NCBI GenBank assembly: GCA_035629175.1
Contig: DASPIL010000100.1
Location: 1-36,820, forward strand
Origin: Verrucomicrobiia bacterium
GTDB taxonomy: Bacteria; Verrucomicrobiota; Verrucomicrobiia; Limisphaerales; DASXHY01
Reading direction: 5' to 3'
DNA length: 36,820 nt
The position numbers were made by a program, and so were the translations under genes. Below, piece by piece: positions 2,108 to 36,820 of the stretch. Below the pieces are notes generated by a model. That model was not told the DNA's origin and did no database searches. It was given only the letters and a program-made list of their open reading frames with translations. Within the stretch, counting starts at the first letter, position 1. Every line of letters starts with the position of its first letter.

Positions 2108-2131
2108 ACACGCGTCGCGTTAATCAATCAA

Positions 2132-3448: not shown

Positions 3449-3461
3449 GTCATATTCGTTC

Positions 3462-4793: not shown

Positions 4794-4795
4794 TC

Positions 4796-6130: not shown

Positions 6131-6142
6131 CCAGGCAGCTGC

Positions 6143-7051: not shown

Positions 7052-7074
7052 GGCTGGGCGTAATGCAAACGACG

Positions 7075-11580: not shown

Positions 11581-12037
11581 TTATTCTTCCGCCATCCGGT
11601 CGGGTTCCGGCGCGAATTCGATGTATTCGACTTCCCCGTCGTCTGTCGGCGGTTCTGGATCCACAGGAACGTTCGGATCCACGGGCGGCTCCGGATCTTC
11701 GGGGAAAATCGGGTGGAGGCTCCGGCTCAAACGAACTCTCCAGGCCGGTAATGATGTTTGAGGCTGACACGAAAAAAAACGCCACGTCATTCGTCATCGG
11801 AACCGAACAACTGCGTTCGACTACATTGGTCGCCAACGGCCATTCCCGTACTGGCAGCGTCAGGTCGGATGTTTGATAAACATTGAAGACGATGGTGTCC
11901 GGCTCAACTTCAGGATAGTCCCAGGAAAGCGTTACGGTCTTAATCGAAGGCGGCGGCAGAATCACGGCATGGCTGGATCGCCAGGACAAGACCATTGCTG
12001 CGACAACGATCGAAATATTCCCAAATCTTTTCTGCAT
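11581..12037 (-). pseudogene. Frameshifted secreted protein with fibronectin-III-like domain
   Basis: Read leftward from ATG 12037, the first part gives a signal peptide (ISIVVAAMVLSWRSSHA) and an Ig/fibronectin-like segment (VTLSWDYPEVEPDTIVFNVY, later AFFFVSASN), then the proline-rich EPEPPP. In that frame the sequence then degenerates into an Arg/Ser-rich tail running on under the next gene. Shifting one base near 11710 recovers a sensible acidic proline-rich tail (FPEDPEPPVDPNVPVDPE) that ends at a stop at 11581. The intact protein would be roughly 150 residues. Either the gene is broken or there is a sequencing error; the good codon content on both sides favours a recent event or an error. 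Function unknown. Confidence 0.6.
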
Positions 12038-12254
12038 GGTGCGCAAATGTTGCACCAGCAAAAATCTGAATCAGTCGGCGAAACGGCATTTGTTGTGTAG
12101 GAAAAACTCTGACAATCGCGTGAGAATTTCCCGGGGGTCAAAAATCCGTACAGCTGCCACTTGCGCGCTCGATGCGGCGCGGATTGAAGCCGATCCTTGT
12201 CGATGAACGCCTGCTGCCACGGGGCGAACTGCGTGTAAGGCAGGAAGGTCCGGC

Positions 12255-12626
12255 TCAGGAAAAAGCGGGAGTGACTTCCACCTTCTGTCCAGCGGCGGCG
12301 ACCACGTCTTCACCCTGCGCCCACACACAGTCATTGAGCAGCAGCTTGAATTTCACGCGGTCCTTGATTTCGCCGGACCATTTCCATGTCGTTCCGTCAA
12401 CGCACGTGAGCGGCACGCCCTGATTCCAGCTGAGTCCATCGCCCTCGCCGCGCAGATACAGCGCGTTCCCGAAGCCAACGTCGGCCTTCGCCAGAACCGT
12501 CACAGGTTTCTTCGTCGCTGGAGCACTGCTGTTCATGCATGGGGTTTTGAGCATGGAAGGCTTGGGAGTGACCACGACCGGATCCTTCTTGCGGGACGCC
12601 GCCTTCGCCACTTTTGCAGGTTTCAT
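12255..12626 (-). CDS. Small protein with glycogen-binding (E-set/CBM48-like) fold
   Basis: A 123-residue cytoplasmic protein. Residues 1-45 are rich in Lys, Ala, Pro and Thr (MKPAKVAKAASRKKDP) and probably disordered. Residues 46-122 form an all-beta domain with the pattern ALYLRGEGDGLSWNQG, a WKWSG turn, VKFKLLLND and a final VEVTPAF strand. This resembles the carbohydrate-recognition domains attached to starch and glycogen enzymes, including the Trp pair and the aromatic near the LND loop. It stands alone with no enzyme domain. The start is ATG 12626. Bases 12062-12254 downstream and 12627-12795 upstream show no gene. Glycogen or oligosaccharide sensing is a guess from fold only. Confidence 0.7.
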   Translation of the reverse strand: MKPAKVAKAASRKKDPVVVTPKPSMLKTPCMNSSAPATKKPVTVLAKADVGFGNALYLRGEGDGLSWNQGVPLTCVDGTTWKWSGEIKDRVKFKLLLNDCVWAQGEDVVAAAGQKVEVTPAFS

Positions 12627-12795
12627 AAATTCAAACTCGATATTATTTGTTCACAGTGCGCATTTCCGAACAAACGATCCGCTCGCGCCCAGCGTGAGCG
12701 TTTCGCTGGCAGGGTTCCAAGCAGAAGGTGTTCCCGGTGCATTTGCCCCGCCTTCCTCTCGCATCTCCAATGACAATTCTCCGCCCCTTCGTTCG

Positions 12796-13512
12796 CTAGA
12801 ATTTACAATTCCAGTCCGGCCTGGCGTATTTTTCCCGGGCCAGTTGCTTCATCAATGCATGAGGGAAATCACGCGCCGAATCCCGAGCCCCCCAATGCGA
12901 GCGAATTGCGGCTTTTACCGCCTCGGCGGGAATGTTGAGGTTGCGAAGAAACTCGGCATGCGAACGCCCTTCGCGGTAGTCAGGCTGGCGCGAAGGCATC
13001 GGCAGGAACTCGGTTATCAACGAGAGATCAAAATCCAGGAGGAACGCGCCGTGAAAGAGGATCGAGCTGCGCTGCCGCCGTTGCGCATTGCCGGAAAACT
13101 TCACGCCGCCAATCGCAAGGTCCGTGTGGCCAAGCACTTCAACCTGGCCCGCCCCCGCTGCAGCAAGGGCGTCGCGGATTCGATCCATGATGTGGCGATT
13201 GGTCGACGTGATGTTTCGCAGCGGGCCCTCGTCCGGTGCCCGGAAAATCAGTGAATAGTTGAGACATCCCGGGCCCTGCACCACAGTCCCCCCGCCGGTG
13301 CACCGCCTGAGGATCGGAATCCCTCGCGATCGGCACGCCTCCACATTGACCTCGGCCGAAACTGCGTTTCCATATCCGACAACCACAAAGACGTGTTCGG
13401 ATTCCCAGAAGCGCAGCACATCTTCGGCGCCGTTTTCCGACGCGTGCAGCAGCGCGTCATCGGCGGCAAGATTATCCTCCGGACAAGCAAAACTAAGATC
13501 GAGATATTTCAT
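12796..13512 (-). CDS. Lipoate-protein ligase family protein (LplA-type catalytic domain)
   Basis: A 238-residue enzyme of the biotin/lipoate ligase fold. Diagnostic parts are VGYGNAVSAEVN, the RRCTGGGTVVQGPG loop (residues 69-82) that binds the lipoyl or octanoyl adenylate, NYSLIF, and DLAIGGVKFSGNAQRR with the conserved lysine at 138. It would attach lipoate or octanoate to lysines of lipoyl domains. It is shorter than E. coli LplA and lacks most of the C-terminal accessory domain, so it could instead be an octanoyltransferase of the LipM/LipL kind. The neighbour across the divergent promoter is the complete pyruvate dehydrogenase operon, whose E2 carries one lipoyl domain; that makes E2 the obvious target. 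Confidence 0.87.
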   Translation of the reverse strand: MKYLDLSFACPEDNLAADDALLHASENGAEDVLRFWESEHVFVVVGYGNAVSAEVNVEACRSRGIPILRRCTGGGTVVQGPGCLNYSLIFRAPDEGPLRNITSTNRHIMDRIRDALAAAGAGQVEVLGHTDLAIGGVKFSGNAQRRQRSSILFHGAFLLDFDLSLITEFLPMPSRQPDYREGRSHAEFLRNLNIPAEAVKAAIRSHWGARDSARDFPHALMKQLAREKYARPDWNCKF

Positions 13513-13594
13513 CTGGCGCTTGCGCCGGATTGTTGGATATTGACTGAGCCCAGCCCGATATGCAGCGCGTCATCGACGTGCGAGGTGTGACATT

Positions 13595-13625
13595 TTGACT
13601 GGCCTTTTGGCGGGCATGCTATCTA
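13595..13625 (+). promoter_or_regulatory. Probable sigma-70 promoter of aceE, extended -10
   Basis: TTGACT at 13595-13600 is a near-consensus -35 box. TATCTA at 13620-13625, preceded by TG one base upstream (13617-13618), forms an extended -10. The 19-base spacer is long, which the extended -10 could offset. It lies 60 bases before the aceE start in the gap divergent from the lipoate ligase. Predicted by eye only. Confidence 0.5.
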
Positions 13626-13626
13626 A

Positions 13627-13643
13627 TTCCGCGCTTCGCGGAA
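13627..13643 (+). repeat. Perfect inverted repeat at predicted aceE transcription start
   Basis: TTCCGCG and CGCGGAA flank a CTT loop, a 7-base perfect palindrome beginning two bases after the -10 box. It could be an operator for a dimeric repressor sensing pyruvate-pathway status, or a 5' stabilising hairpin on the aceE mRNA. The sequence alone cannot decide. Confidence 0.45.
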
Positions 13644-13684
13644 CGGAACCCGGGGTTTTGAACGTCGTCATTTGAATTTGGAAT

Positions 13685-16402
13685 GTGAGTAACAAAGTGA
13701 AAGCAGAGAAAAAAGAAAAGAATCAGGCGCGGTCGCGGTCAGCCAGCCGCAACGGAAACGACGGTGATCGCGTGTTGGAATCCCTGGAAGCATTGCTCGA
13801 GGTGGCGTTGACCCAGCAGGGGACTGAGCGCACGAAGGAGTTTCTTTCAAATATCACTGACAAGCTCCGAGCCGCAGGCGTCGAAGCGCCCCACACCGTC
13901 AGCACCGCGTACATCAACACGATTTCTCCCGAGGATCAGGCGGAGTTCCCTGGCGATCGCGACATGGAGGTGCGCATCAAGAGCCACATTCGCTGGAATG
14001 CCATGGCGATGGTGGTGAACGCCAACCGAAAGCACAACGGCCTGGGTGGCCACATCTCCACATACGCTTCGGCAGCAACCCTTTACGAAGTCGGCTTCAA
14101 TCATTTTTTCAGGGGGCGAACGAAGGAATTTCCCGGGGACCTCATTTATTTTCAGGGGCACGCCACGCCAGGCGTTTACGCACGAGCCTATCTTGAACGG
14201 CGTCTTGACGACCATCATCTGCAGCATTTCCGCCAGGAATTGGCTGAAGGCGGCGGACTGTCGTCGTATCCGCACCCGTATCTGATGCCGAACTTCTGGC
14301 AGTTCCCGACCGTTTCCATGGGATTGGGGCCGATCATGTCGATCTACCAGGCGCGATTCAACCGCTACCTGCGGGCGCGCGGGATCATCAGCGGACAGGA
14401 GCCAAAGGTCTGGGCATTCCTGGGCGATGGCGAATGCGATGAACCCGAAACCCTGGGCTCAATCACTCTTGGAGCGCGCGAGACGCTCGACAACCTCATC
14501 TGGGTCATCAACTGCAACCTCCAGCGCCTCGATGGACCCGTTCGCGGAAACGGCAAGATCATCCAGGAACTTGAAGCACTCTTCCGCGGCGCGGGCTGGA
14601 ATGTCATTAAGGTAATCTGGGGCTCGGACTGGGATGATCTCCTTGCCCGCGATTCCAGCGGACTGCTCCTCAAGCGCATGCAGGAGGCTTTGGATGGCGA
14701 TTACCAGAAGTATTCCGTCGAACCTGGCAGCTACACGCGCAAACATTTTTTCGGGAAATATCCCGAATTGCTGCAGCTGGTGAATCATTTGAGCGACGAC
14801 CAGATTCGGAAGCTGCTGCGTGGCGGGCACGACACTCGCAAGGTTTACGCTGCCTACAAGGCGGCTTACGAACACAAGGGGCAACCTACGGTCATTCTGG
14901 CAAAGACGATCAAGGGTTACGGTTTGGGCGAAGCAGGCGAAGGCCGCAACATCTCGCATCAGCAGAAGAAGATGAACGAGAAGGAGCTGCGCGAGTTCCG
15001 CGAGCGCTTCAACGTTCCGATCAGCGACGACGTCATCGCCGAAGCTCCGTTTTATCGGCCGCCTGAAGACAGCGAGGAAACGAAGTATCTGCTCGGCCGG
15101 CGCAAAGTCCTGGGCGGTTTTCTCCCGCAACGCAACGCCGCGGCCGATGTCCTTGAAATTCCGAAGGTCGAAACCTTCAGCGAATTCTTCAAGGGATCGG
15201 GGTTGATGGAGGTGTCGACCACGATGGCATTTGTGCGGTTGCTCAGCATGCTATTGCGCAACAAGGCGATTGGGCGGCGCATCGTGCCCATCATTCCCGA
15301 TGAGGCGCGCACCTTTGGCCTGGATGCATTGTTTCGGGAGATTGGAATTTATTCATCCAAGGGCCAGTTGTACGAGCCCGTCGACATCAAGTCGCTTCTG
15401 TATTATCACGAAGCGAAGGATGGGCAGATTCTTGAAGAGGGAATCACCGAAGCGGGCTCCATGTCTTCATTCATTGCCGCGGGCACAAGCTACGCCTCGC
15501 ACGGCAAGCACATGATCCCGTTCTACATCTATTATTCGATGTTCGGTCCGCAACGGATCGGGGATCTGGTCTGGCTCGCGGGTGACATCAAGGCGAAGGG
15601 TTTTCTGCTGGGCGCGACATCCGGGAGAACGACCCTGAACGGCGAAGGGTTGCAACATCAGGACGGACACAGCCTTTTGCTGGCAAGCACGGTGCCTACG
15701 CTCATGACCTATGATCCTGCGTTTGGATACGAACTCGCCGTGATCGTGGCGGATGGGATGCGCCGGATGTACGTCAATAACGAGGACATCTTCTATTACC
15801 TCACGTTGTATAATGAAAATTATCCGATGGCCGCAATGCCGCAGGGCGTTGAAGAGGGAATCCTGAAGGGATTGTATCGGTTCAAGAAGGGTGCTGAAGG
15901 CAAGCAGGCGAAGGCTCACATCTTTGCCAGCGGACCGATCATCAATCAGGCATTGAAGGCGCAGCAGATCCTGGCGGAGCGTTACGACGTTTCCGCGGAT
16001 GTGTGGAGCGCGACCAATTACAAGCAGCTCCGGAGCGAAGCCGTGCAATGCCGTCGCTGGAACATGCTGCATCCGACAGCGAAGCCGAAGAAGTCCTACA
16101 TCGAGACGCTGCTCGCCAAAGAGAAGGGCGCTTTCGTTGCGGTTTCTGACAATGTGCGCCTCGTGCCCGAGCAAATTCTGCCCTGGGTTCCAGGTGGCAT
16201 GTTCACGCTCGGTACCGACGGTTTCGGCCGCAGCGAGACGCGCGCGAACTTGCGGCGTTTCTTTGAGATCGACGCGGAGTGCACCGTTATCGGGACGCTG
16301 TTCGCGCTTGCTGAAAAGGGCATGATCGAACGCTCTGTCGTGGAGAAGGCGATCAAGGATCTCGGTGTGAACCCGGAGAAGTTGTTTCCCGAACTGGTGT
16401 AA
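13685..16402 (+). CDS. aceE: Pyruvate dehydrogenase E1 component, homodimeric type
   Basis: A 905-residue enzyme that decarboxylates pyruvate with thiamine diphosphate and reductively acetylates the E2 lipoyl group. It is the single-chain AceE form, close to the 887 residues of E. coli AceE, with a Lys/Arg-rich N-terminal tail (residues 1-25) that may contact E2. The thiamine-diphosphate/Mg motif runs from GDGECDE (247-253) to NCN (276-278). Other family blocks are GHISTYASAATLYEVGFNHF, ETLGSITLGARE, TIKGYGLGEAGEG and GRTTLNGEGLQHQDGHS. The start is GTG 13685; the ATG two bases earlier in another frame stops at once. It is first gene of aceE-aceF-lpdA, divergent from the lipoate ligase. Confidence 0.96.
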   Translation: MSNKVKAEKKEKNQARSRSASRNGNDGDRVLESLEALLEVALTQQGTERTKEFLSNITDKLRAAGVEAPHTVSTAYINTISPEDQAEFPGDRDMEVRIKSHIRWNAMAMVVNANRKHNGLGGHISTYASAATLYEVGFNHFFRGRTKEFPGDLIYFQGHATPGVYARAYLERRLDDHHLQHFRQELAEGGGLSSYPHPYLMPNFWQFPTVSMGLGPIMSIYQARFNRYLRARGIISGQEPKVWAFLGDGECDEPETLGSITLGARETLDNLIWVINCNLQRLDGPVRGNGKIIQELEALFRGAGWNVIKVIWGSDWDDLLARDSSGLLLKRMQEALDGDYQKYSVEPGSYTRKHFFGKYPELLQLVNHLSDDQIRKLLRGGHDTRKVYAAYKAAYEHKGQPTVILAKTIKGYGLGEAGEGRNISHQQKKMNEKELREFRERFNVPISDDVIAEAPFYRPPEDSEETKYLLGRRKVLGGFLPQRNAAADVLEIPKVETFSEFFKGSGLMEVSTTMAFVRLLSMLLRNKAIGRRIVPIIPDEARTFGLDALFREIGIYSSKGQLYEPVDIKSLLYYHEAKDGQILEEGITEAGSMSSFIAAGTSYASHGKHMIPFYIYYSMFGPQRIGDLVWLAGDIKAKGFLLGATSGRTTLNGEGLQHQDGHSLLLASTVPTLMTYDPAFGYELAVIVADGMRRMYVNNEDIFYYLTLYNENYPMAAMPQGVEEGILKGLYRFKKGAEGKQAKAHIFASGPIINQALKAQQILAERYDVSADVWSATNYKQLRSEAVQCRRWNMLHPTAKPKKSYIETLLAKEKGAFVAVSDNVRLVPEQILPWVPGGMFTLGTDGFGRSETRANLRRFFEIDAECTVIGTLFALAEKGMIERSVVEKAIKDLGVNPEKLFPELV

Positions 16403-24075: not shown

Positions 24076-25749
24076 TTAACCTTTGAGTTCAGCCGCCTGG
24101 AGCAGATTCTCCAGCCGCGTCTCGGGGAGCTGCGGTTGAACGTCCAGTTTGCCGTAGTCGAGTTTGATGACCCGGTCCGCAACGTGGAAATATTTGTCAT
24201 CGTGGGAAATCACGAGGACGGTTTTCCCGCGCGCCTTTAACTCAGGCAGCAGTTGTGTGTAAAAAACGTTCTTGAAATGGGGATCCTGGTCGGCCGCCCA
24301 TTCGTCAAACAGATAGAAGGGGCGGTCCTCAAGATAGGCCGTCATCAGAGCCAGCCGCTTGCGCTGTCCCTGTGACAGCGACGTGGTGGAGAGGGTGCCA
24401 TTGGTTACCTTGACCTTGTGGCTGAGGTGCAGTTGCTCCAGGTATTCGGCGGCGCGATTGTCGCGCTCATCAGAACCGATCCCAATCAGCTTGTCGAACA
24501 GGTAGAAGTCAGAAAAAATCGCGGAGAACACCTGGCGGTAATCGTCGCGGTTTTGATCCGTGACGGGAATTCCATCCAGCCTGATTTCACCTGCTTCCGG
24601 GATGTAGAGGCCCGTGATGATCTTGGCGAGCGTCGATTTCCCGCTGCCATTGCCGCCAACAAGGAAGACCAGTTCGCCTGGATGGAAGCGCACGTTGATG
24701 GGTCCAAGCGTGAACTGGCTGTCGTCCTTTTCGTGGCGATAGGTATGCACGATGTTGCACAGTTCCAGCTTCTTGAAATCGCGGGGCGGCGCTGATTTCT
24801 CAAGCGGGCAAACCTCGGTCGATTTCTCCGCGAGCGAAATCCCCACCGACTCGATCTTCTGCAATGCAACATTGGCACGCCCAAATAGCGATATGCTGCT
24901 GATCGCGCCCGACAACGGCCCCATGAGGTAGAGCGTCGTGACGACGTAACCCGTCAGGGTTTCCCGCGTCATGGGCACGAGGGTGGGCAGCAGGAAGAGG
25001 ATCAGGCCGATGAGCGCGAAGTAGAGCAGATGGGTCCAGTTCTGCGACACAATGAACCGCATCTCGGCGGCCACGGTATGGCGCTGGTAAGCCGCGGTGG
25101 TGTTTTGGACGTCATCCAGCAGGAACGCGTTGCGGCGGTTGCGATGCAGCTTCAACTCCTTGATGCCTTCGGTGAGCGCTCGGAAGTGACCATACAAGGT
25201 GTCCTCCTGTTCGCGCGCGAGGTGCAGGTGATGGAACGCGCTGGTCATGATCAGGCGGTAGCCAATTCCGCCCAGGACAATCATCACGCAGACACCCAGC
25301 AACACCTGCCATGAAAGCCAGCCGAGATACGCCGCACCGCCGAGCAGGATCGCGACGTTGACCGTGACGATGGGAACGGCGAGCAGCGCGTTCGTGATGC
25401 TGTTGACGTCGTCCGTGAGGGCAACGAGAACGCGCGGCGTGCCGACTTCCTCGAGCGCGCGGAGCGGCACAGTCAGGACCTTGCGCACAAGACTCCGCCG
25501 CAAATCGGCGACCACTCCCTGCGAATACCTGGCAAGCATCGCCTGCGCGTAAAAGTTGCTCGCCAGTTTCCCGACGCCGACGGCGATAAATGCGCCGACG
25601 ATGAACGTGGCCGCCCGGGCTGGCCCGGTCAGTGCGATGTTGACCAGGGCGATGAGCCCGGCATTACAGGCGCCGCTGACGGCAGCAGCGATGGTGGTAA
25701 GCACCATCATTCCGCGACAGTTAACCCAGATGAATCGGAGCAGTTTCAT
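24076..25749 (-). CDS. Cyclic-peptide-type ABC exporter (fused membrane and ATPase domains)
   Basis: A 557-residue half-transporter of the SyrD/PvdE-like cyclic peptide export family, which usually sits beside NRPS genes and moves the finished or precursor peptide across the inner membrane. Six membrane helices fill residues about 10-310. The ATPase domain has Walker A GGNGSGKST (365-373), the signature LSQGQRKRLAL, Walker B PFYLFDEWAADQD and the switch histidine in LVISHDDKYF. The start is ATG 25749, overlapping the NRPS stop by four bases (ATGA); a further in-frame start 36 bases upstream lies inside the NRPS and is less likely. The tight coupling supports a dedicated exporter for the NRPS product. 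Confidence 0.93.
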   Translation of the reverse strand: MKLLRFIWVNCRGMMVLTTIAAAVSGACNAGLIALVNIALTGPARAATFIVGAFIAVGVGKLASNFYAQAMLARYSQGVVADLRRSLVRKVLTVPLRALEEVGTPRVLVALTDDVNSITNALLAVPIVTVNVAILLGGAAYLGWLSWQVLLGVCVMIVLGGIGYRLIMTSAFHHLHLAREQEDTLYGHFRALTEGIKELKLHRNRRNAFLLDDVQNTTAAYQRHTVAAEMRFIVSQNWTHLLYFALIGLILFLLPTLVPMTRETLTGYVVTTLYLMGPLSGAISSISLFGRANVALQKIESVGISLAEKSTEVCPLEKSAPPRDFKKLELCNIVHTYRHEKDDSQFTLGPINVRFHPGELVFLVGGNGSGKSTLAKIITGLYIPEAGEIRLDGIPVTDQNRDDYRQVFSAIFSDFYLFDKLIGIGSDERDNRAAEYLEQLHLSHKVKVTNGTLSTTSLSQGQRKRLALMTAYLEDRPFYLFDEWAADQDPHFKNVFYTQLLPELKARGKTVLVISHDDKYFHVADRVIKLDYGKLDVQPQLPETRLENLLQAAELKG

Positions 25750-28700
25750 GAAACAACAGATTGAGCGATGGGTTGTGCAGCGCACGCAGCCGCTTGGGCG
25801 TTGTTGAGCGCGGCGTGCATCTCCCGCGCGAGATGCTGGACATTTGGGTCGATGAAAATGTTCTCATGCGATCCCGGGATTCGGCGGATTTCAGCGCCGT
25901 CGCTGGCGAGCCTTCCCCAGCAGAAGTCATCAGCAAACGAACAGAGGAACGGCTGGCCGCGCGTTCGAATGAGCGTCACCTTCCCGTCATAAGGTTTCTC
26001 GACATGATTCGTGAGCGCGCGCAGATGAATTTCCCAGAACTTCAATTCGTGTTCCGGGAAGTATGATGGATCGATGACTTCCTCGAGATCCACATCCTGG
26101 CTTGGATCCTTGCGCTCGCCGCGCAGATAGCTGAGAGCCTTGCGGCCGAGAATGCGCGCTTTGCGGACGATGAACCGCTGGCGTTCCTCGGCAGTCAGGC
26201 CCTCGAAATCCTGAAGCCAGTACCAAAGATTTCGCGCAAACCGGAAATAGAACGCGGGTTGCCACCACGTGATGCGCTCATAACCTGCATTCGAGGGGAA
26301 CGCATCGATGAGTGCCACGAGCGCCACCTCTTCGCCGGCATCGCGCAACTGCCGGGCCATCTCGTAGGCAACGTTGCCTCCGAGGCAATATCCACCGACG
26401 TAATAAGGCCCATGTGGCTGCACCTTCCGAACTTCCTCAACGTAATAACGCGCCATGGCTTCAATGCTGTCGTATTCATCGAGCCCGATCTGGCCGCGCG
26501 ACTTGATTCCATGGATCGGCTGGTCGGGCGGCAGATGCTGGGCGAGGTTGGCGTATCCCCAGAGCACGTCGCCGCCCGCGCCGTGCGCGAGGAACAGCGG
26601 CGGCCTGTCGCCGTTCGGTTGCACGGGAACGATGGGTGATTGCGACTGGCCCTGGCGGCTGTCGCTGAGCACCCGGGCCAGTTGTTCAACCGTGGGCGCC
26701 TGGAAGACCGTGACAAGCGGGAACTTGCGTCCCGTGATTTTTTCGAGTTCCGCAAACAACCTCACCGCGAGCAGCGAATGGCCGCCGAGTTCGAAGAAGT
26801 TGTCCCGCAACCCGACCTGTTCGACCCGCAGCAATTGCTGCCACAAGCCGCAGAGCTGCTTTTCCATTTCCGTTTCCGGGGGAACATAGTTGCTCTGCTC
26901 AACCGAGCGGCGCGCCGTCCGCGCCTCCATTGCTGCGTGGATGCTTTTCGCATCGGCTGTCTGCAACGCAAGCGCCCGGTATTTTCGAAAACGGTTTCCA
27001 GGAAGTTGCGCCGCCTGCGTGGCTGATGGACGGCGGGCGGGTTCGCCCGCAGGCGCTCCCGCCGGCCGCCGATCCTCGGCTTGTGCGGGATTAAATTTCA
27101 GGTTTGCCGCGGCTTCCGCAGGGAAGCGGTACACGTAGCCGCCATTCAACGCCTGGCGATAGCTGGACCCGATGCTCTCGAGAAAATCAAAAGCCGGCTT
27201 GTTCTTTTCCGAGCGGTGGAAGTGCACATCCACCCACGTGAGCTTTCGTTCCGCCGCAATTGTCCCGAGCCTTGAAATCATCGCGTGCTCCACGCCGCGG
27301 CCCAGCACACGGCAACTGAGCAGGAGGGTGTCGACATCGAGCCCGTCGCCCGCGGTGGAGCAAATCACCACGCCGACCAGGCCGTAGTCGCCGAAGCGAT
27401 CCTTCACCGTGACCGTCAGGATGTCTGAAGAGCCGGCGAGCTTTTGAAGGTCCATCTCCGAGCGGCGAATCGTCGTGCAGTTGAACTGGTTGGTGCGGTG
27501 GGTCAATTGCGAGACCCGCGCGAGTTCGGAGGACTCCATCGGCTGAATGACAATTTCAAGTTTCAGGCTGGCGACGAAGTCAGCGAGGCTCATCGCCTTG
27601 GAACGCAACTGTTCGCGTTGCTGGTTCTGGCGGTACATTTCGCTGCGTTTGCGGTCCTCCGCCGTCAGCTTCGCAGTGTCAAAGATCCAGGAATGCTGGA
27701 GGAACTCCGGGATTTTCTGCGGGTCCTCGGGCAGTTGCAGCGTAAGCACCTGGGGACAATTTGCTTCGACTTCCGCGCATTCCACAGGGTTGTCATCCAC
27801 GAACACGATGCTGTCGAGGCCGAGGTTCAACTCCTCGGCGAGCGATTTCAGGTTCTCGGACTTGGGCAGCCAGTTCGTCCGCCAGGCAGCGAAATTGTCA
27901 TGTCGCAAGGGCATGTCGAGGCGGCGGGCAAAGACTTCCCGCACGTCTTCTTCGTTGTTCTTGCTGCACACAGCCAGAAGCCTTCCGGCTTCCTGCTGCG
28001 CCCGCATGAATTCCTGAAGCGCCTTCCGCGGTGCATCGATGCATATGCCGTCCGCGCCATCTTCGCCGCAGACGCCCGACCACAGCGTGTTGTCGCAGTC
28101 GAGCACGATGACCTTGGGCTGGCTTCGCTGCAGCGCATGCAGCCGCCGGCAGATCATTGTGCCGAGCGCGGTGAAGAACACGGGCGTGTACGGCACGCGG
28201 CCCAGTTCGTCCCCGCTTGCGTCGTAATAGTCATCGACGGGATACATCCGGCGGAGGTCTTCGCCCGTGACCACGTGGATGCCGCTTCCGGCTTCCAGTT
28301 CTGACGCAATGAACTTTTCAACGCGCTCTATCATGCTGCGCAGCGCCGGGTCCGCAGCGATGCGCGTGGAGGGCGGGCAGAGCACCGCGAGGAACGGCAC
28401 CTGCGCGCGGCTCGCTGCAGAACGGACGGCATCGATGAATTCTCCTGCAACCCGTTGCAATGCTGCCGCGTCGTGCGAAGCCTCTTCCTGGATCCAGTCC
28501 TCCGATCGCAGCAGCAGGACGTTGAGTCCGCGGAGGTTGCCATTCAGGAGGCTCGCGGGGTCGAGCAGTTCCTGGAAAACCTGGTTGTAGGGCGCAAACG
28601 CGGCCCGCAGCGGAAGGTCGAGTTCCGTGGACCAATAGCGCAGCGACTCTTCGATGGGCTCGGCGGTAAATGTCGCGGCAATTGCAAGGGTCAATCCCTT

Positions 28701-31700
28701 CTCGCGGCTGCGCGCCTCCTTTGCCTGGGCTGTCAACGCCGCGGGGAGGGCAAGGTCCTCGAGCTTTGCCTGGGGCTTCTCGACCAGCGTTTCGAGCGTT
28801 TCACGGAACGCCTGCAGGACGAGTTCTACGGTTTGAGGCTTGAACAGGTCTTTCCGGAAATCGCACTTCACGGTCATTCCCTGTTCCGACTCTTCAGCCT
28901 CGAATTCCAGGTCAACTGGCGATGCTCCGGGTGCGAGGCGCTCGAATCGTGACTTGAGGCCGCGCGGATCAAACGTGATGCGCGCGAAGTTCTGCAGCAG
29001 CAGCGTGACGTTGTAGAGCGGATTCTGGAGTTGCTTCCGCTCGGGATTCATTGCTTCGACAATCTTCTCGAAGGGACAATCCTGATGTGACTGGGCTTCG
29101 AGAACCGCCGCTTTGACATGTTGCAACAGCTGCTTGCCGGAATTGTCCTCGCCGAAACGGATTCGCACAGGGAGGAAGTTGATGAAGCAGCCGATCACGT
29201 CCTCGATCTCGCGGCGATTCCGCCCGGCCGCCACCGCGCCGATGACGAGATCGTGCTGGCCCGTCCACTTGCGCATCACGAGTGACAAGGCTGTCATCAT
29301 CAGGATGTAAGGCGTGCAGCCGTCGCGCTGGGCTACTGTTGCCATGCGCTTGACGAGGTCCTGCGAGAGAGCCAGGAAACATGAACCGCAGGCCCTGCTC
29401 GGGAATTCCGATTCGGAATGGTCAGCCGGAAGATTGATCGAGGTGGGGGCTCCGGCCAGCCGCGATTTCCAGAATTCCAGTTCGTTTTCCAGCATCGGCC
29501 CGCTCATCCACGTGTTGTGCCAATGGGCGTAATCCGCGTATTGCACGGGGAGTTCAGGCAGAACTGCGTCATTGCCAGTCACCCCGGCGTTGTAAAGGGC
29601 CTCGAGTTCGGAGAAAAAGATCGCAACCGAGCAGCCGTCCGAGATCGCATGATGCATGACGACCACCAGAATATGGCTTTGCGGCGAAAGGCGAATCAAC
29701 CGGCAGCGGAGCAGCGGCCCTCGCGCCAGATCGAAGCACTCGTTTGCATCAGCTGTCGCGATCTCGCGGGCACGGGTCTCCGCATCGGCTTCCTGGGTCA
29801 CGTCGGTCACCGCCAGCGTGACAGGTGCGGGCGGCGCGATCTGTTGTGTAAGGCGGCCATCCACGAACTCCATCGTGGTTCGAAGTGCCTCGTGGCGCGA
29901 CGCGAGGTCCGTCAACGCGCGTCGCAGGCACTCGACGTCGAGATCGCCTTCCAGCCGGACGAGCGTCGGAACGTTGTAAGTGGCGTTCCCCGGCTCCAGT
30001 TGGTCGATGAACCAGAGGCCGGCCTGCATCGGCAGAACCGGCAGCGCGCTGTCGCGCGGAACGGGCTGCAACGGCAGAACGGGGAATTGGTTGCGAGTCC
30101 ATTGTCCGCACATCATTCCAAGTGCGAGACCTTCCACGGTGGGCGCCTCGAAGACGCTGAACAAAGGCAACTCCAACTTGAATGCTTCACGAGCGCGGGA
30201 AAGCATCTGCACGGCGAGCAGCGAGTCGCCGCCGAGCTCGAAGAAGTTATCGCGCAATCCAACGCGTTCCACCCTCAGGACTTCGCGCCAGATGCCAGCC
30301 AGTTGCTGCTCCATCGGCGTGCGCGGCTCCATGTGTGACGTGCGATGAGCGGCGTGGTGCCGTTCAGGTTCAAGCAACCTGTGGCCATCAATGCCGCCGC
30401 TCGAAGTGCGGGGCAGGGCGTCCATCACCACCAGGGCGGACGGAATCATGAACCCGGGCAATTTCTGTCGAGCAAGCCGTCGCAGTGCCTCGCCGGTTAA
30501 TGAGCCGCCGGACTTGGCGGTGGCGTATGCCATCAACCGCGCAATGCCGTGGGCGTCGTGATGCAGAATTACAACCGCCTCATTGCAGGCGGGATGTTGT
30601 CGCAGCACCGATTCAATCGATTCCAGATCAACCCTGCGGCCCTCGATGGTGACGCGGCGATCGCGCCGTCCTATCAATTCGAGCTGGCCGTCGCCCCGCC
30701 ATCGCGCGAAGTCGCCTGTGCGATACAGGCGCGCGCCTGGCTGGAACGGATTTTCAATGAAGCGCTCGGTGGTGAGTTCTGCGCGGTTGAGATAACCCCG
30801 GCCAACGCCATGGCCGCCGATACAGATTTCACCAGGAACGCCTGTCGGCACCGGCTGCAGGTGCGGGTCGAGCAGGTAAACTTCCGCGCCTGGGATAGGA
30901 CGGCCGATCGTGGCTGCCTCGTTTGTGTTTCGAAGCGCGGCGGCACAACACATCGTTGCTTCCGTGCAGCCGTAAAGGTCATACACCTTCTGCACCTGGG
31001 TTCTGCTCTTGACCGCGTTCACCAGGCTTTCAGGCAGCAGTTCGCCGGAAACTGTGACCACCCGCACCGTGGACGGAACTCCGTTCTCTTGAACGAGATC
31101 GCGCAAGGCCGGCGGTGTGGTGTGAATCAACGTCACCTCTGCGGCGGCAGGGAGCGTTCGTAACGCCTGCAGGTCCTCCGCGAGGATCACCTTTCCGCCA
31201 GTGCAAAGCGGCACCAGTAATTCAAACAAGGAATCGTTGCAGTCGAATGGACTTGCGGCGAACACGCCCGAAAGTTCCTCGGGCGGGAACGTGGCACGTG
31301 CCCAGTTCACCAGCATCGCCACATTGCGATGCTCAAGTGCGATGCCAACAGGTTCGCCATCGCGTCCTTGTGAGTAGAAAACATGGCTTGCATCACCAGC
31401 TGTGGCGGATGAGGCGGGATCGGACATATCTGCATTGCCGGGCTGCAGTGACGCGCAATCGACCACAGCGAGCTCTGGCTGGGCAATCGCCAGGGCGTCG
31501 CGGGTGGAACGCTCCGTGAGGACCACGCGCATCGCGGTGTCGCGCAGGATGAAAGCATGACGCTCGGCCGGCCAGGCAGGATCAAGGGGAACGCACGCCC
31601 CGCCCGCCTTGAGCACCCCAAGCATTGCGGCCAGCGATTCGATCGACCGATGCATGCAGATGCCGACGTGAACGCCAGGCGCCTCGTTGATGGTGCGAAG

Positions 31701-34700
31701 GTGGTGCGCAATGCGATTCGCCCGTGCGTTGAGCTCCGCATACGTGACGCGCTCTCCGCCTGCAATCACAGCGTCTGCGCTGGGATTCTTCCGCACCTGC
31801 TCCGCGAACAAATGTCCGACGGTGGTTGCATCGGCGGTTTGCGTCCGCGGATTCCATTCCGACAACAGCCGGCGCTGTTCTGCTTCCGACAGCAGGTTCA
31901 GCCGCGAAAGGCGCTGTTCCGGATTCGTTGCGATGGCGCGCAACAAATTCCCGAAATGCTCCGCCATCCGTGCGATACGATCCGCATCGAACAATGCCGT
32001 GCTGTATTCGAACGACGCCCTGAAGCCTTCGGCGTCAGGAGCCACATACAGCCACAGATCTAGTTTGCAGGTGTTGTTATGCGTGCGCGATGGCTCGAAC
32101 CGCAACCCGCCGCTCTGCGTTCCTGCGAGGGGAGCCGCGTCGTAGGTGAACATCACCTGAACGATCGGCATGTGTCGCGGATCGCGCGGCGGCTTCAGCT
32201 CGCGAACGAGCGTCTCGAACGGAACATCGCTGTGTGCAACCGCCGATTCATGCGCCTGCTTCACCCGGTTCAGTATTTCAGTGAAAGTCGGATCCCCGGC
32301 GAGGTCGCCGCGGACAGGCACGTTGTTGTTGAAGTTTGCGACCACGCCGCGCAGTTCGGGTGCGCGGCGCGATGTCTGGAATCCAACGACGACATCCGTG
32401 GCTCCCGTATAACGTGCGAGCAACGATTCAAACGCTGCGAGCAGAACCGTTGGCGGGGTGCATTGGAATCGCCGGGCGAGTGCGCTGATCTCCTGCGACA
32501 ATCGTGAATCGATCACGAACGGACAGAAGGCGCCTGCATCGCGCTGATGCCCCGGCCGGGCTCGATCAGCGGGAAGATCGATTCGCGCGGGTGCCCCGGC
32601 AAGTTGCTGCTTCCAGAATCCGATGCGCTCTGGAGCGGCCGCCCAGTTGCGGATCAATGCCGTCGTCAGGGCAGAGTAAGTGATGCCCGGCTGCGGCAAT
32701 GACGCTTCGGTCCCGCTTGAGAATGCCTCATACAGCGCAACCAGTTCGTCCAAGATCAACCGCACGGAATCGCCGTCGCAGGCGAGTTCATGCGTCATCA
32801 ACAGAAGCAGATGATCGTCCTCATCGAGCTGCCAAAGGAACGGGCGCAGCATTGGAGTTGCGAGGACGGAAGACTTCGATCCTTCCTCGATCGCCTGCGT
32901 CACGGCGCGCGACACGCGTTCTTCGGGCGCAAGCTGACGCAGGTCGGTAATCGGCACGAGGATCGGTTTCGGCTCACAAATGATCTGCACGGGCTGTCCA
33001 TTGTCTGTGCTGAATATCGTGCGCAGCGCCTCGTGGCGGCGGGAGATTTCCGTGAGGCTTTCTTCAAGTGCCGAAATGTTCAGAGGCCCTTTCAACCGAA
33101 TGCTCGTGGTGATGTTGTGTGACGTCTGTTCGGGTTCGAACAAGTCGAGGAACCACATCCTCAATTGCGCGGGCGTCAAAGGCAGCACCTTGCCGCGAGA
33201 CATCGCCGATGCTGGCAGGACGGGCTGGCTGGCGCTGCCGCTGCGGGTGAGATGCGCCGCAAGCGATGCCACTGTCGGCATGTCGAACAAATCCCCGAGA
33301 GGCACTTCCACCTGCAGCGTCTCGCGCATCCGGGAAATGACTTGCGTCGCGAGCAGTGAATGTCCGCCGAGATCGAAGAAGTTGTCTTCGATGCCGACGC
33401 GCTTCAACCGCAGGACCTCGGCCCAGATGCCCGCAAGGACTTCCTCGAGCGGCGTTCTGGGCGCAGCGTATTCGGAATCCAATTCAGGCCGGTCATCGCC
33501 AGGTGCGGGCAGTGCCTTGCGGTCCACCTTTCCGCCTGGGGTCATCGGCAACGCCTCGAGCGGCACGAAGGTCGCGGGCACCATGTACGACGGCAGCCTG
33601 TCCTTGAGGAAATGCCGCACGTCGTTCACGTGCAGCGATGCGCCTTCGCGCGGAATGTAATAGGCGACCAGTCTCTTCTTGCCGGGTGCGTCCTCGCGCG
33701 CCACGACGACGGCTTCCTTCAAACCGGGATGCGAGCGCAGCGCGGATTCGATTTCGCCCAGTTCAATCCGGTAGCCGCGGATTTTTACCTGCTCGTCCAC
33801 GCGCCCGACAAATTCCAGTTCGCCATCTTCGCGCATGCGAACGAGGTCGCCCGTGCGATACAGTTTTTCGGAGGGAACATCGGGAAACGGATTGGCGATG
33901 AACTTCTGTGCCGTTAGTTCAGGGCGATTGAGATAACCGCGCGCCACACCGGCGCCGCCGATGAAGAGCTCGCCCGTTTCACCTGCGGGAACGCGGTTGA
34001 GGCTGGCATTAAGAATGAGAGCGTAGACGTTCTCGAGCGGGCGGCCGATTGGCAGTGTGTCGTCGTTCGGCTGGCCAACATGGAGCGTCGCGCTGACGGT
34101 GGTTTCGGTCGGGCCATACGTGTTGATCAGCTTGACCCGATCTCCAGCGCGGGCTTTCCAGCGGCGCCAGGCTTCATCCGAAGCGCGTTCGCCGCCGATC
34201 ACCACCAGCCGCAGCGATGGCGGCAGCTCGGCGTTGCGCGTGTGCTCGACGAGTTCGTGCCAGTAGGCGGTGGGCAAATTGAGGACGGTGATATTCTCAT
34301 TCCGGACAAACTCGAAGAATCGTTCCGCGGACGAGAGAACATCGTCGGTGCGCAGCACCAGTGCCCCGCCGTTCAACCAGGTGGGGAAGATTTCCTCGAC
34401 CGAAATGTCGAAACTGTAGGGGCTGAACTGGACTACGCGATCCTGGGGCGTGAGGCCAAAGACGCGGCCCATTGCGAAGTTGTGGTTCAGCAGCGAACGA
34501 TGAGTGATCTGAACTCCCTTGGGCTTGCCAGTCGAGCCCGACGTGTAGATCACATACGCAAGGTTGTCCGCCGTTGCATTGGACACAGGATTTGCGGACG
34601 GCAACTGTTCCAACTGGCGCAGCTCATCGGGATCGTCGAGGCAGATCACGTTCAGGCCATCACTCGTGAGCCCGGGAACGGAACGGCGCTGGGTGAGCAG

Positions 34701-36820
34701 CACGCGCGCGCCGGAGTCCTGAAGCATGTAAGCCAGGCGTTCTGCCGGGTACGAGCGGTCGAGCGGCAGATACGCTGCGCCGGCTTTCAGGATTCCCAAC
34801 AAGGCGACGGGCAGGTCGAGAGAACGTTCAAGGCAGACGGCCACGAGCGTTTCAGTTCCGACACCCAGCAGGCGCAATCGATGGGCGAGTTGATTCGCCC
34901 GCGTGTTCAATTCCGCATAGGTGTATTCGCGGTCCTGGAACCGAATGGCGGGGGCAGCAGCATGACGCGCGGCCTGCTCCTCGAAATAGTGAGCGTAGGG
35001 CTGCACTTCGGCTGTCTTCGATTGGGACTCCGTTGTGGCGCTGCCATGGCTCGTTGAGCGGGCAGGCGCGGCTTTGAAAGCGTCGGCCAAAGCGGAAGTG
35101 AGCGAAGTGGCGAGCGTCCTGACGCAGGGTTCCTCCAGGATTTTTTCGTGCACTCCGGGAACAATGCTGATCTCGACTCCGCCGCGGGCGAGGTCACGCC
35201 AGCCGTAATCGCCATCGAAGGAACAAAGCCACGGATGGCCGGGGCTGCGGAACAGGTGAACCTTTCCCGAATATGGCTGGGGATGATAATTGACGAGCGC
35301 ATGGATGTGCCGCTCCCAGAGCTTGCGCTGCTCGTCGGAGAACGATGAAAGGTCGACCAGCTCGCCGGGGTCAATGGTGGCTTTGTTGCTCGATCCGCAG
35401 CCCAGGTACCGGTTCAGGCGGCGCTGGAACATCTCCTTCTTCCATCGCAGAAAATCACGCCGCTGCGCGGGCGACCACTGGGCGCAACAACGCATCCAGT
35501 AGAGGAGATTCACGCCGAAGCGGAAGAACCATCGCGGGGACCAGCTCACGTGCGAGTAACTGGAGTTCGCCGGCGCGCAGTTGAACACGGCCAGCGTGCG
35601 CACTTCTTCACCTGCGGCATGCAGCTGCCGCGCCATTTCGTAGGCAACGTTGCCGCCAAAGCAATAACCGCCAATGTGATAGGGGCCGTGCGGCTGCATG
35701 ACGCGCATGTCCGCAACGTATTGCCGGGCCATCTCTTCAATCGTCGCGAACTCCTCGCGGCCATCCAGCCCGCGTGAGCGCAGGCCGAACACCGGCTGGT
35801 CGTTGCCCAGGTACCGCGAAAGATTGACGTAACCCCAGAACATCCCGCCGCCCGCGCCGTGGACAAAGAAGAGCGGGGGCTTGGTGCCCTTGGGCTGGAT
35901 CTCCACGATCGACGTCCCCGAAATCGCGCTGTCTTCGTGGATTTCCTTGCGCAGAATTGCCGCGAGCTGCTCGATTGTCTGAGCCTGGAAAATGGTGGCG
36001 AGCTTCAGCTTGCGGCCAAACTGCTTCTCGATCTGAGCAATCACGCGAACGGCCAGCAGTGAATGCCCGCCGAGTTCGAAGAATTTGTCTTCGATGCCGA
36101 TGGGCGAAATTCCCAGCACGTGCTCCCAGATTTTCGTCAGCTCGACTTCCACGGCATCCTGCGGCGTCGCGTATCGCTTTTCCAGTTCGGGTCTCGCGCG
36201 ATCCGGTTCAGGAAGCGCGCGGCGATCCACCTTGCCATTTGCCGTGAGCGGCAAGGACTCGAGCCGCACGAACGCCGAAGGAACCATGTAGTCGGGCAGT
36301 TTCTGCTTGAGGAATTGCCGCAGCTCAGGGATGCCGGGCCCTCGGCGCCCGCTGGGCACAAAGTAAGCGGCCAGCTTTTTGTCGTCGTTTCGATTGCCGA
36401 ACACGGTCACCACGCATTCGCGAATCGAAGGATGCTGCGACAGCACGCTTTCAATTTCGCCGAGCTCCACCCGGAAGCCGCGCAGTTTGACCTGGTGGTC
36501 CGCCCGGCCAATGAATTCCAGCGTTCCGTCGGCCAGCCAGCGAACAATGTCCCCCGTGCGATACAGGCGGTCGCTTCCCGATTGGTTCGAGAAGGGATTG
36601 CGAACAAACTTTCGATCTGTCAGCTCCGGCTGTTTCCAGTATCCGCGCGCCAGGCCGTCCCCGCCGACGTACAGCTCGCCAGGAACGCCAGCCGGGACAG
36701 GATTCAGGTGCGCGTCGAGAACGTAGCACTGGCTGTTTGCCACCGGACGGCCGATCGGAATTGTGACGGCGTTTTCAGGCAGTTCTTGCACTTCGTGCCA
36801 GGTCGAGAAAGTGGTGTTCT
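25746..36820 (-). CDS. Giant NRPS with internal thioesterase and FkbH domain (5' end beyond window)
   Basis: Over 3,690 codons in one open frame with no start in the window: the frame is still open at the right edge inside an adenylation domain, and the GTG at 36791 is internal. Counting that GTG as residue 1: A1 C-terminal part 1-200; T1 206-284 (Ser244); TE1 305-568 (Cys377); A2 598-1100 (SGSTGKPKG at 751, Lys1088); T2 1108-1183 (Ser1145); C1 1200-1640 (HELACDG 1334-1340); A3 1652-2140, degenerate; T3 2153-2226 (Ser2190); C2 2236-2690 (HHAISDG 2380-2386); FkbH 2700-3235 (DCDNT 2898-2902); Pro/Ala linker; T4 3300-3375 (Ser3339); TE2 3396-3660 (Cys3469, Asp3496, His3642). It is translationally coupled to the exporter. 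A non-ribosomal peptide, possibly carrying a glyceryl or glycerate unit, is expected; its structure cannot be read. Confidence 0.95.
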   Translation of the reverse strand, partial: NTTFSTWHEVQELPENAVTIPIGRPVANSQCYVLDAHLNPVPAGVPGELYVGGDGLARGYWKQPELTDRKFVRNPFSNQSGSDRLYRTGDIVRWLADGTLEFIGRADHQVKLRGFRVELGEIESVLSQHPSIRECVVTVFGNRNDDKKLAAYFVPSGRRGPGIPELRQFLKQKLPDYMVPSAFVRLESLPLTANGKVDRRALPEPDRARPELEKRYATPQDAVEVELTKIWEHVLGISPIGIEDKFFELGGHSLLAVRVIAQIEKQFGRKLKLATIFQAQTIEQLAAILRKEIHEDSAISGTSIVEIQPKGTKPPLFFVHGAGGGMFWGYVNLSRYLGNDQPVFGLRSRGLDGREEFATIEEMARQYVADMRVMQPHGPYHIGGYCFGGNVAYEMARQLHAAGEEVRTLAVFNCAPANSSYSHVSWSPRWFFRFGVNLLYWMRCCAQWSPAQRRDFLRWKKEMFQRRLNRYLGCGSSNKATIDPGELVDLSSFSDEQRKLWERHIHALVNYHPQPYSGKVHLFRSPGHPWLCSFDGDYGWRDLARGGVEISIVPGVHEKILEEPCVRTLATSLTSALADAFKAAPARSTSHGSATTESQSKTAEVQPYAHYFEEQAARHAAAPAIRFQDREYTYAELNTRANQLAHRLRLLGVGTETLVAVCLERSLDLPVALLGILKAGAAYLPLDRSYPAERLAYMLQDSGARVLLTQRRSVPGLTSDGLNVICLDDPDELRQLEQLPSANPVSNATADNLAYVIYTSGSTGKPKGVQITHRSLLNHNFAMGRVFGLTPQDRVVQFSPYSFDISVEEIFPTWLNGGALVLRTDDVLSSAERFFEFVRNENITVLNLPTAYWHELVEHTRNAELPPSLRLVVIGGERASDEAWRRWKARAGDRVKLINTYGPTETTVSATLHVGQPNDDTLPIGRPLENVYALILNASLNRVPAGETGELFIGGAGVARGYLNRPELTAQKFIANPFPDVPSEKLYRTGDLVRMREDGELEFVGRVDEQVKIRGYRIELGEIESALRSHPGLKEAVVVAREDAPGKKRLVAYYIPREGASLHVNDVRHFLKDRLPSYMVPATFVPLEALPMTPGGKVDRKALPAPGDDRPELDSEYAAPRTPLEEVLAGIWAEVLRLKRVGIEDNFFDLGGHSLLATQVISRMRETLQVEVPLGDLFDMPTVASLAAHLTRSGSASQPVLPASAMSRGKVLPLTPAQLRMWFLDLFEPEQTSHNITTSIRLKGPLNISALEESLTEISRRHEALRTIFSTDNGQPVQIICEPKPILVPITDLRQLAPEERVSRAVTQAIEEGSKSSVLATPMLRPFLWQLDEDDHLLLLMTHELACDGDSVRLILDELVALYEAFSSGTEASLPQPGITYSALTTALIRNWAAAPERIGFWKQQLAGAPARIDLPADRARPGHQRDAGAFCPFVIDSRLSQEISALARRFQCTPPTVLLAAFESLLARYTGATDVVVGFQTSRRAPELRGVVANFNNNVPVRGDLAGDPTFTEILNRVKQAHESAVAHSDVPFETLVRELKPPRDPRHMPIVQVMFTYDAAPLAGTQSGGLRFEPSRTHNNTCKLDLWLYVAPDAEGFRASFEYSTALFDADRIARMAEHFGNLLRAIATNPEQRLSRLNLLSEAEQRRLLSEWNPRTQTADATTVGHLFAEQVRKNPSADAVIAGGERVTYAELNARANRIAHHLRTINEAPGVHVGICMHRSIESLAAMLGVLKAGGACVPLDPAWPAERHAFILRDTAMRVVLTERSTRDALAIAQPELAVVDCASLQPGNADMSDPASSATAGDASHVFYSQGRDGEPVGIALEHRNVAMLVNWARATFPPEELSGVFAASPFDCNDSLFELLVPLCTGGKVILAEDLQALRTLPAAAEVTLIHTTPPALRDLVQENGVPSTVRVVTVSGELLPESLVNAVKSRTQVQKVYDLYGCTEATMCCAAALRNTNEAATIGRPIPGAEVYLLDPHLQPVPTGVPGEICIGGHGVGRGYLNRAELTTERFIENPFQPGARLYRTGDFARWRGDGQLELIGRRDRRVTIEGRRVDLESIESVLRQHPACNEAVVILHHDAHGIARLMAYATAKSGGSLTGEALRRLARQKLPGFMIPSALVVMDALPRTSSGGIDGHRLLEPERHHAAHRTSHMEPRTPMEQQLAGIWREVLRVERVGLRDNFFELGGDSLLAVQMLSRAREAFKLELPLFSVFEAPTVEGLALGMMCGQWTRNQFPVLPLQPVPRDSALPVLPMQAGLWFIDQLEPGNATYNVPTLVRLEGDLDVECLRRALTDLASRHEALRTTMEFVDGRLTQQIAPPAPVTLAVTDVTQEADAETRAREIATADANECFDLARGPLLRCRLIRLSPQSHILVVVMHHAISDGCSVAIFFSELEALYNAGVTGNDAVLPELPVQYADYAHWHNTWMSGPMLENELEFWKSRLAGAPTSINLPADHSESEFPSRACGSCFLALSQDLVKRMATVAQRDGCTPYILMMTALSLVMRKWTGQHDLVIGAVAAGRNRREIEDVIGCFINFLPVRIRFGEDNSGKQLLQHVKAAVLEAQSHQDCPFEKIVEAMNPERKQLQNPLYNVTLLLQNFARITFDPRGLKSRFERLAPGASPVDLEFEAEESEQGMTVKCDFRKDLFKPQTVELVLQAFRETLETLVEKPQAKLEDLALPAALTAQAKEARSREKGLTLAIAATFTAEPIEESLRYWSTELDLPLRAAFAPYNQVFQELLDPASLLNGNLRGLNVLLLRSEDWIQEEASHDAAALQRVAGEFIDAVRSAASRAQVPFLAVLCPPSTRIAADPALRSMIERVEKFIASELEAGSGIHVVTGEDLRRMYPVDDYYDASGDELGRVPYTPVFFTALGTMICRRLHALQRSQPKVIVLDCDNTLWSGVCGEDGADGICIDAPRKALQEFMRAQQEAGRLLAVCSKNNEEDVREVFARRLDMPLRHDNFAAWRTNWLPKSENLKSLAEELNLGLDSIVFVDDNPVECAEVEANCPQVLTLQLPEDPQKIPEFLQHSWIFDTAKLTAEDRKRSEMYRQNQQREQLRSKAMSLADFVASLKLEIVIQPMESSELARVSQLTHRTNQFNCTTIRRSEMDLQKLAGSSDILTVTVKDRFGDYGLVGVVICSTAGDGLDVDTLLLSCRVLGRGVEHAMISRLGTIAAERKLTWVDVHFHRSEKNKPAFDFLESIGSSYRQALNGGYVYRFPAEAAANLKFNPAQAEDRRPAGAPAGEPARRPSATQAAQLPGNRFRKYRALALQTADAKSIHAAMEARTARRSVEQSNYVPPETEMEKQLCGLWQQLLRVEQVGLRDNFFELGGHSLLAVRLFAELEKITGRKFPLVTVFQAPTVEQLARVLSDSRQGQSQSPIVPVQPNGDRPPLFLAHGAGGDVLWGYANLAQHLPPDQPIHGIKSRGQIGLDEYDSIEAMARYYVEEVRKVQPHGPYYVGGYCLGGNVAYEMARQLRDAGEEVALVALIDAFPSNAGYERITWWQPAFYFRFARNLWYWLQDFEGLTAEERQRFIVRKARILGRKALSYLRGERKDPSQDVDLEEVIDPSYFPEHELKFWEIHLRALTNHVEKPYDGKVTLIRTRGQPFLCSFADDFCWGRLASDGAEIRRIPGSHENIFIDPNVQHLAREMHAALNNAQAAACAAQPIAQSVVS

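Follow-up and report, generated by a model that had tools for sequence, protein, structure and literature searches.

FkbH enzymes load a glyceryl unit from 1,3-bisphosphoglycerate onto a carrier, and the locus described here raises the question of what such a domain does when it stands within an NRPS, where an adenylation domain would be expected and just before the last carrier and thioesterase. The window, by which we mean the whole 36,820-nucleotide stretch of DNA that was analyzed, is the entire contig C100 of a Verrucomicrobiia genome (G000; 5.4 Mb in 108 contigs). The NRPS gene lies on the minus strand at 25746-36818 as a single open frame of 3690 residues, open at its 5′ end, where the contig stops. 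Profiles from Pfam and NCBIfam, together with home-built ones, give the order A1(partial)-T1-TE1-A2-T2-C1-A3-T3-C2-FkbH-T4-TE2 (Table 1). We favor, at a probability of roughly 65%, the reading that the last part of this protein is a terminal module incorporating glycerate, the product of the NRPS probably ending on a glycerate unit. FkbH would take a phosphoglyceryl unit from 1,3-bisphosphoglycerate, remove the phosphate and place the glyceryl group on T4; C2 would join the upstream acyl group, held on T3 or, if the C1-A3-T3 module is bypassed, on T2, to a hydroxyl of glyceryl-S-T4 to give an ester; TE2 would release the depsipeptide by hydrolysis or cyclization, and the adjacent ABC transporter would export it.

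Table 1. Domains of the NRPS and the neighboring transporter gene, with positions in the window
Feature	Position	Strand	Remarks
A1, C-terminal part only	36174..36818	-	front part probably on contig C77 of the same genome
T1 carrier	35931..36137	-	domain profiles
TE1, internal thioesterase	35064..35897	-	Cys386 (GYCFGG); Asn413 at the Asp position of TE2; His kept
A2 adenylation domain	33504..34997	-	core motifs intact; nine-letter code DIENVGTVS
T2 carrier	33234..33455	-	domain profiles
C1 condensation domain	31884..33197	-	active-site motif HE, not HH
A3 adenylation domain, apparently dead	30369..31817	-	motif losses
T3 carrier	30099..30317	-	Ser kept (GGDSL)
C2 condensation domain	28734..30056	-	HHAISDG; predicted to acylate glyceryl-T4
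FkbH domain	27084..28706	-	DCDNTLW, SKNN, VDDNP, SCR
T4 carrier, putative glyceryl carrier	26664..26876	-	domain profiles; Ser kept
TE2, terminal thioesterase	25794..26621	-	Cys3478, Asp3505, His kept
ABC transporter, TIGR01194 cyclic peptide exporter family	24076..25785	-	directly downstream of the NRPS

The front of the NRPS gene probably lies on contig C77 of the same genome, where positions 1-8641 cover the probable upstream part of the line. A C-A stretch there is 61% identical to that of the relative G043 and runs off the contig start. By alignment with G043, a gap of about 14 residues separates it from the first residue of the window, and we regard the joining of the two contigs as probable from this alignment. 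Before this stretch, the region holds a C-A-T gene and an A domain and its end with a T domain in two frames; by eye, this A domain contains a methyltransferase-like stretch, and its separation from the A end and T is perhaps a frameshift. A frameshift or chimera in the window gene itself was considered and thought unlikely, as the frame is open for 3690 residues and the same order is found in 8 other genomes; an assembly accident is likewise unlikely for the FkbH module, since C2-FkbH-T-TE recurs in one frame in these 8 further genomes. The transporter scores 503.9 bits against TIGR01194 (cut-off 286.2), and in 10 relatives the NRPS is likewise followed directly by a homologue. Membership of the window transporter in the cyclic peptide exporter family is compatible with a cyclized product and is no proof of cyclization.

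The FkbH domain is a member of NCBIfam TIGR01686 (317.1 bits, E 1.2e-94; cut-off 146.65) and the only match to this model in the genome, the same search returning none in 14 control genomes; no Pfam FkbH model is found among the Pfam matches to the window NRPS. Among solved chains, one matches the domain with E up to 0.001, 3slr (BF1531; 1.8e-30). A single-sequence structure prediction of FkbH alone gave a mean pLDDT of 39.6, and the model was set aside. The sequence-only reading had described a complete FkbH between a condensation domain with an intact HHAISDG and the last T-TE, and all of the motifs it quoted are found: HHAISDG at residues 2389-2395, FTAEPIEESLRYW at 2717-2729, YNQVFQELLDP at 2744-2754, DCDNTLW at 2907-2913 (window 28100-28080), VFVDDNP at 3005-3011 and RVLGRGVEHAMISRLG at 3170-3185 of the NRPS frame. 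Its nucleotide span of 27087-28694 corresponds to residues 2709-3244; the residue numbers given with it are 9 lower, as they would be if the count began at the GTG at residue 10. FkbH does take the place of an A domain, with its HAD motifs kept together with the Cys of the SCR motif, to which we presume a catalytic role, with the HHxxxDG of C2 intact and with the Ser of T4 in place. An extender-unit reading, in which FkbH would serve the synthesis of hydroxymalonyl or methoxymalonyl, was thought unlikely given that the domain is embedded before T-TE; no acyl-CoA/hydroxyacyl-CoA dehydrogenase or O-methyltransferase partner was seen beside FkbH among the translated ORFs of the window, inspected by eye. 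The other dehydrogenase-like genes noticed there look, also by eye, like parts of the pyruvate dehydrogenase complex and Gfo/Idh-type oxidoreductases.

A search with the FkbH domain against 320 genomes of the same order (E up to 1e-60) found matches in at least 42 of them, and in at least 12 of the 320 FkbH follows a C2-type condensation domain (G000, G043, G008, G264, G102, G072, G158, G157, G075, G019, G156 and G269). Gene surroundings were examined for part of the matches; the remainder lie in frames of at most 680 residues, too short for a one-frame C-FkbH-T-TE, a criterion that would overlook two-protein lines of the foxicin kind. The motifs DxDxTLW, SKN, DD[ND]P and SCR are present in all 12 members, so the loss of catalytic residues that a proper alignment might have revealed was looked for and their retention found instead. 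The C-FkbH-T-TE order, for which a genome search had been proposed, runs on in one frame in nine of the 12 (the window and 8 others), and the window FkbH is 56-67% identical to those of the other eight genomes. G157 has the TE in an overlapping next frame and the FkbH frame of G156 is cut short near a contig end, while in G269 (contig C170, 8357-18667) the same module is internal, in the order C-FkbH-T-C-A-T-TE. This internal C-FkbH-T supports glycerate as a chain unit and makes that the best reading. In G269, the last C domain clusters with those of the TE1 module.

Within the family two layouts recur. The window-like lines (G043, G008, G264) read C-A-T-TE1-A2-T-C1-A3-T-C2-FkbH-T-TE2, whereas in shorter lines (G102, G072, G158, G157) C1-A3-T3 is absent and C2 is directly preceded by an A domain. 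This A domain carries the code DVQ(F/Y)(I/V)A(H/Q)VV in the shorter lines, which we take to be proline; the code DLFNNALTY, presumably alanine, is found in A3 of G043, G008 and G264 and in the A domain before C2 in G075. From these codes the residue before glycerate in these relatives is probably Pro or Ala. G019 has a methyltransferase within the A domain before C2 (Pfam); a methyltransferase in the A domains of G269 was also considered and rejected, a Pfam scan of G269 and G019 showing one only in the latter. Second FkbH-T genes occur in G102 (contig C52, 10183-12708) and G157 (contig C50, 8272-10566), 52-54% identical to the window FkbH, neither of them sharing a frame with a C domain.

An even draw across the phylum gave FkbH matches in at least 23 of 387 genomes, the window's own included. 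C-FkbH-T-TE was found in none of the 7 other genomes of this draw with frames above 1300 residues: FkbH comes first in five (G559, G596, G562, G556, G637), lies within the line in G402, and precedes T-reductase in G638. Among 72,556 plasmid records, 460 match the C2-to-TE2 query at 1e-40, none of these covering 80% of the query in one place; FkbH itself matches in 78 plasmid records at 1e-40, and the gene surroundings of six were read. A scan of genome contigs added one distant FkbH match, in Anaerofilum. Endings of the form C-FkbH-T-reductase were found on a Niallia taxi plasmid (11685-18701), on a Rhodococcus sp. PD04 plasmid (6352-17114) and in G638, with C-FkbH-T last, as in the window, but a reductase instead of the TE. 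The Niallia and Rhodococcus proteins also contain KS domains, upstream of this module, and in Rhodococcus the T-reductase is on the next protein. These lines show FkbH endings to be a design that recurs. Two plasmid loci stand apart: plasmid pOJF2_1 of Aquisphaera giovannonii (11959-14970) encodes, amid glycosyltransferase and exosortase genes, an FkbH-T-TE protein that lacks a C domain and perhaps puts glycerate on a polysaccharide, and a plasmid of Streptomyces sp. NBC_00441 (7933-11031) has an FkbH-T gene adjoining a separate thioesterase gene among glycosyltransferases, for which a similar glycerylation of polysaccharide is perhaps the role. The Aquisphaera arrangement speaks against the glycerate-module reading, in that a glyceryl carrier may serve a TE in some other manner.

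HHxxxDG is kept by the condensation domain before FkbH in every one of the 12 family members. In the C-domain tree, from which 3 of the 49 C pieces were left out (at most 350 residues each, the split C2 of G264 among them), the family's 11 C2 domains form one clade (SH-aLRT 100), separate from C1 and from the C domains of other modules in this local set. In the G264 NRPS (contig C208), about 70 extra residues were noticed within C2, at residues 3371-3440. The C domains preceding FkbH in G402 and G638 are both long branches outside the C2 clade, so the C domains before FkbH (13 rows) are not one clade, which also weighs against the glycerate-module reading.

Several parts of this design are known from other assembly lines, among them vioprolide, for which Auerbach 2018 is reportedly the primary paper. 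In the vioprolide C-FkbH-T module the C domain esterifies FkbH-loaded glycerate with a fatty acid (PMC8949500), the FkbH being cited as activating 3-phosphoglycerate (PMC10099666), and a glycerate ester made by C-FkbH-T has been proposed likewise for corramycin (PMC10099666). FkbH replaces the A domain in VioA module 2 and ComK module 2 (FAAL-ACP-C-FkbH-T), as it does here, but both modules are near the start of the line, with a fatty acyl donor and further modules after them, whereas the module in the window is last and followed by a TE; the internal place in G269 resembles that of the vioprolide glycerate module. One classification places the ester-forming C domains of VioA and of BurF, from the malleicyprol line, among the ordinary LCL domains (PMC12304814). 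FkbH also loads glycerate in an NRPS in suomilide/varlaxin AerB (BslA), although at the starter position (PMC13122637, PMC10143770), and in a predicted Flavobacterium line the FkbH module is the fifth of seven (PMC11298585). In the foxicin line of Streptomyces, FoxBII-FoxBIII reads ...ACP-C-FkbH, PCP-TE, and loading of glyceryl on the last carrier with release by the TE was proposed (PMC5318452). Foxicin, like the window, closes with C-FkbH followed by a carrier and a TE, but its chain donor is a PKS and FkbH and PCP-TE are on two proteins, in contrast to the single NRPS frame here. The supposition that an NRPS ending on glycerate would be an undescribed module type is not supported, given this published ending; the many characterized lines of exactly this order that had been allowed for come down, in the accessible literature, to one precedent in a hybrid line. 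The parts are known, both the C-FkbH-T esters and the foxicin ending, and what looks new is an all-NRPS, single-protein, conserved C-FkbH-T-TE ending with a modified internal thioesterase upstream.

What reaches C2 in the window is a harder matter. In A3 the ATP-binding motif is lost, with YSQGRDGEPVG in place of YTSGSTGxPKG; the first residue of its code is aligned as N, not D, and its A10 motif, SSGGIDG, is without the Lys. Its identity to A3 of the three other lines is 45-49%, against 60-65% among those three, and the window A2 is 60-68% identical to the same lines, in agreement with the rest. The second His of the C1 motif is lost in three of the four lines in which it can be read (HE in the window and G008, HS in G043, HH in G264), G019 being excluded from this count as its C1 is cut before the motif; that C1 is dead family-wide was rejected, as G264 keeps HH. 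Judged by its motifs A3 is apparently dead in the window, and in this genome the C1-A3-T3 module upstream of C2 appears decayed. The motif losses and the divergence of A3 suggest that this module is probably bypassed here or loaded otherwise. The non-functional appearance of A3 and C1 speaks against the glycerate-module reading, and the decayed module counts against a simple reading of the window line. The idea that a peptidyl chain simply reaches C2 is too simple here, because C1 has lost its second His, A3 looks dead and TE1 interrupts the line.

TE1 may in fact be a more surprising part of this protein than the FkbH ending. It lies between T1 and A2, no C domain precedes A2, and its position is the one that a C domain serving A2 would have. 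Cys and His are kept and Asp is replaced by Asn in all nine TE1 domains (window, G043, G008, G264, G102, G072, G158, G157 and G075), against none of 11 terminal TE domains with Asn at this position. The only ungapped columns that split TE1 from terminal TE domains completely are this Asn/Asp and one Trp/Arg, and in an alignment with 4zxh, a Cys thioesterase, the Asn of TE1 falls on an Asp. The TE1 domains form one clade in the TE tree (97/93); the terminal group is unsupported as such (51/0). In nine of the 10 lines with the junction in view, one frame holds both TE1 and the A domain after it, the exception being G075, where they are in two overlapping frames with an unread base nearby. A WNxT-like stretch is found in starter modules such as GrsA. 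Among eight lines compared, WNxT is present in the TE1-A2 linker of four (G043, G264, G102, G158), looser in G072 and G157, and absent from the window and G008. Both a fusion of two lines and a substitution of a TE for a C domain fit this linker.

In the first of these, two lines have been fused: the first would end at TE1, which would hydrolyze off a short peptide, and the second, from A2-T2 onward, would give an aminoacyl- or dipeptidyl-glycerate released by TE2. We hold this possible though unlikely, for the position of TE1 before an A2 that lacks a C domain and the WNxT linker of four of the eight lines speak for it, whereas Asn for Asp in every TE1 and in no terminal TE would be odd for a simple hydrolase, and the shared TE1-A frame in nine of 10 lines suggests coupling. 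A tentative standing is also due to the view that TE1 is inactive or serves editing only, with C2 using whatever the neighboring intact A domain loads. The usual Asp is lost, and an editing role has been suggested for the internal TE of alpiniamide AlpA2 (PMC6113372); against this, Cys and His are kept in nine of nine, and among the four window-like lines TE1 is 56-68% identical, only slightly below the 62-75% of TE2.

The substitution of a TE for a C domain would make TE1 a transfer domain, its Cys taking the peptide of the first line and passing it to the amino group on T2, so that the line would be continuous and end on glycerate. In its favor, TE1-A2-T2 has the layout of a C-A-T module with the TE in place of the C domain, and the TE1 domains are a single clade with Cys and His kept and Asp changed to Asn in nine of nine. 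We nevertheless find this doubtful: the open-access literature gave no precedent for a TE acting in this way in a linear NRPS, and the missing second His of C1 in three of four readable lines would hinder passage from T2 to T3. The known internal TEs are those of alpiniamide AlpA2, of the Cys type and with editing suggested, and of burkholderic acid, for which the function is given as unknown (PMC6113372), so internal placement is itself not new. Like TE1, the AlpA2 domain has a Cys nucleophile and stands just before an NRPS module, but it keeps Cys/Asp/His and belongs to a PKS context, whereas TE1 has Asn for Asp. An account of the fixed Asn together with the TE1 layout was not found in the open-access literature on internal TEs. 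A speculative proposal, which we think improbable, is that a Cys-His-Asn TE1 replaces a C domain by passing the first-line peptide to the amino acid on T2, and that C2-FkbH-T4-TE2 goes on to cap this chain with a glycerate ester; the outcome would be a single depsipeptide with a glycerate end, exported and possibly cyclic.

Two further alternatives concern the ending itself. FkbH can lose catalytic parts in evolution: in BurF, where a C domain esterifies a carrier-bound hydroxy acid, only an FkbH-like N-terminal extension lies between C and T (PMC12304814), and release is reductive, in contrast to the full FkbH and the TE of the window. A window FkbH that no longer loads glycerate and acts as a structural piece or phosphatase is nonetheless very unlikely, with its motif residues kept in 12 of 12 members and its 56-67% identity to relatives. 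Least probable of all, TE2 might let a 2-O-acylated glyceryl cyclize through its free 3-hydroxyl and its carboxyl to give an acyloxy beta-lactone, in an oxygen analogue of obafluorin-type release, since the TE2 nucleophile is a Cys, as in ObiF and SulM, but the Asp that is moved in those two is at its usual position in TE2 and in all 11 terminal TE domains of the family, and Cys thioesterases are not confined to the family, G556 of the same phylum having one.

The preferred reading, a terminal module that would load, esterify and release glycerate, points to a conserved all-NRPS route to glycerate-ended products in one bacterial order, with several homologues in which its logic can be tested. 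The C2-FkbH-T4-TE2 block is compact and expressible, and could become a useful part for furnishing peptides with an ester and a terminal glycerate. TE1, which stands where a C domain would and has a single active-site change that is fixed, poses the question of whether a thioesterase can join chains within a linear assembly line.
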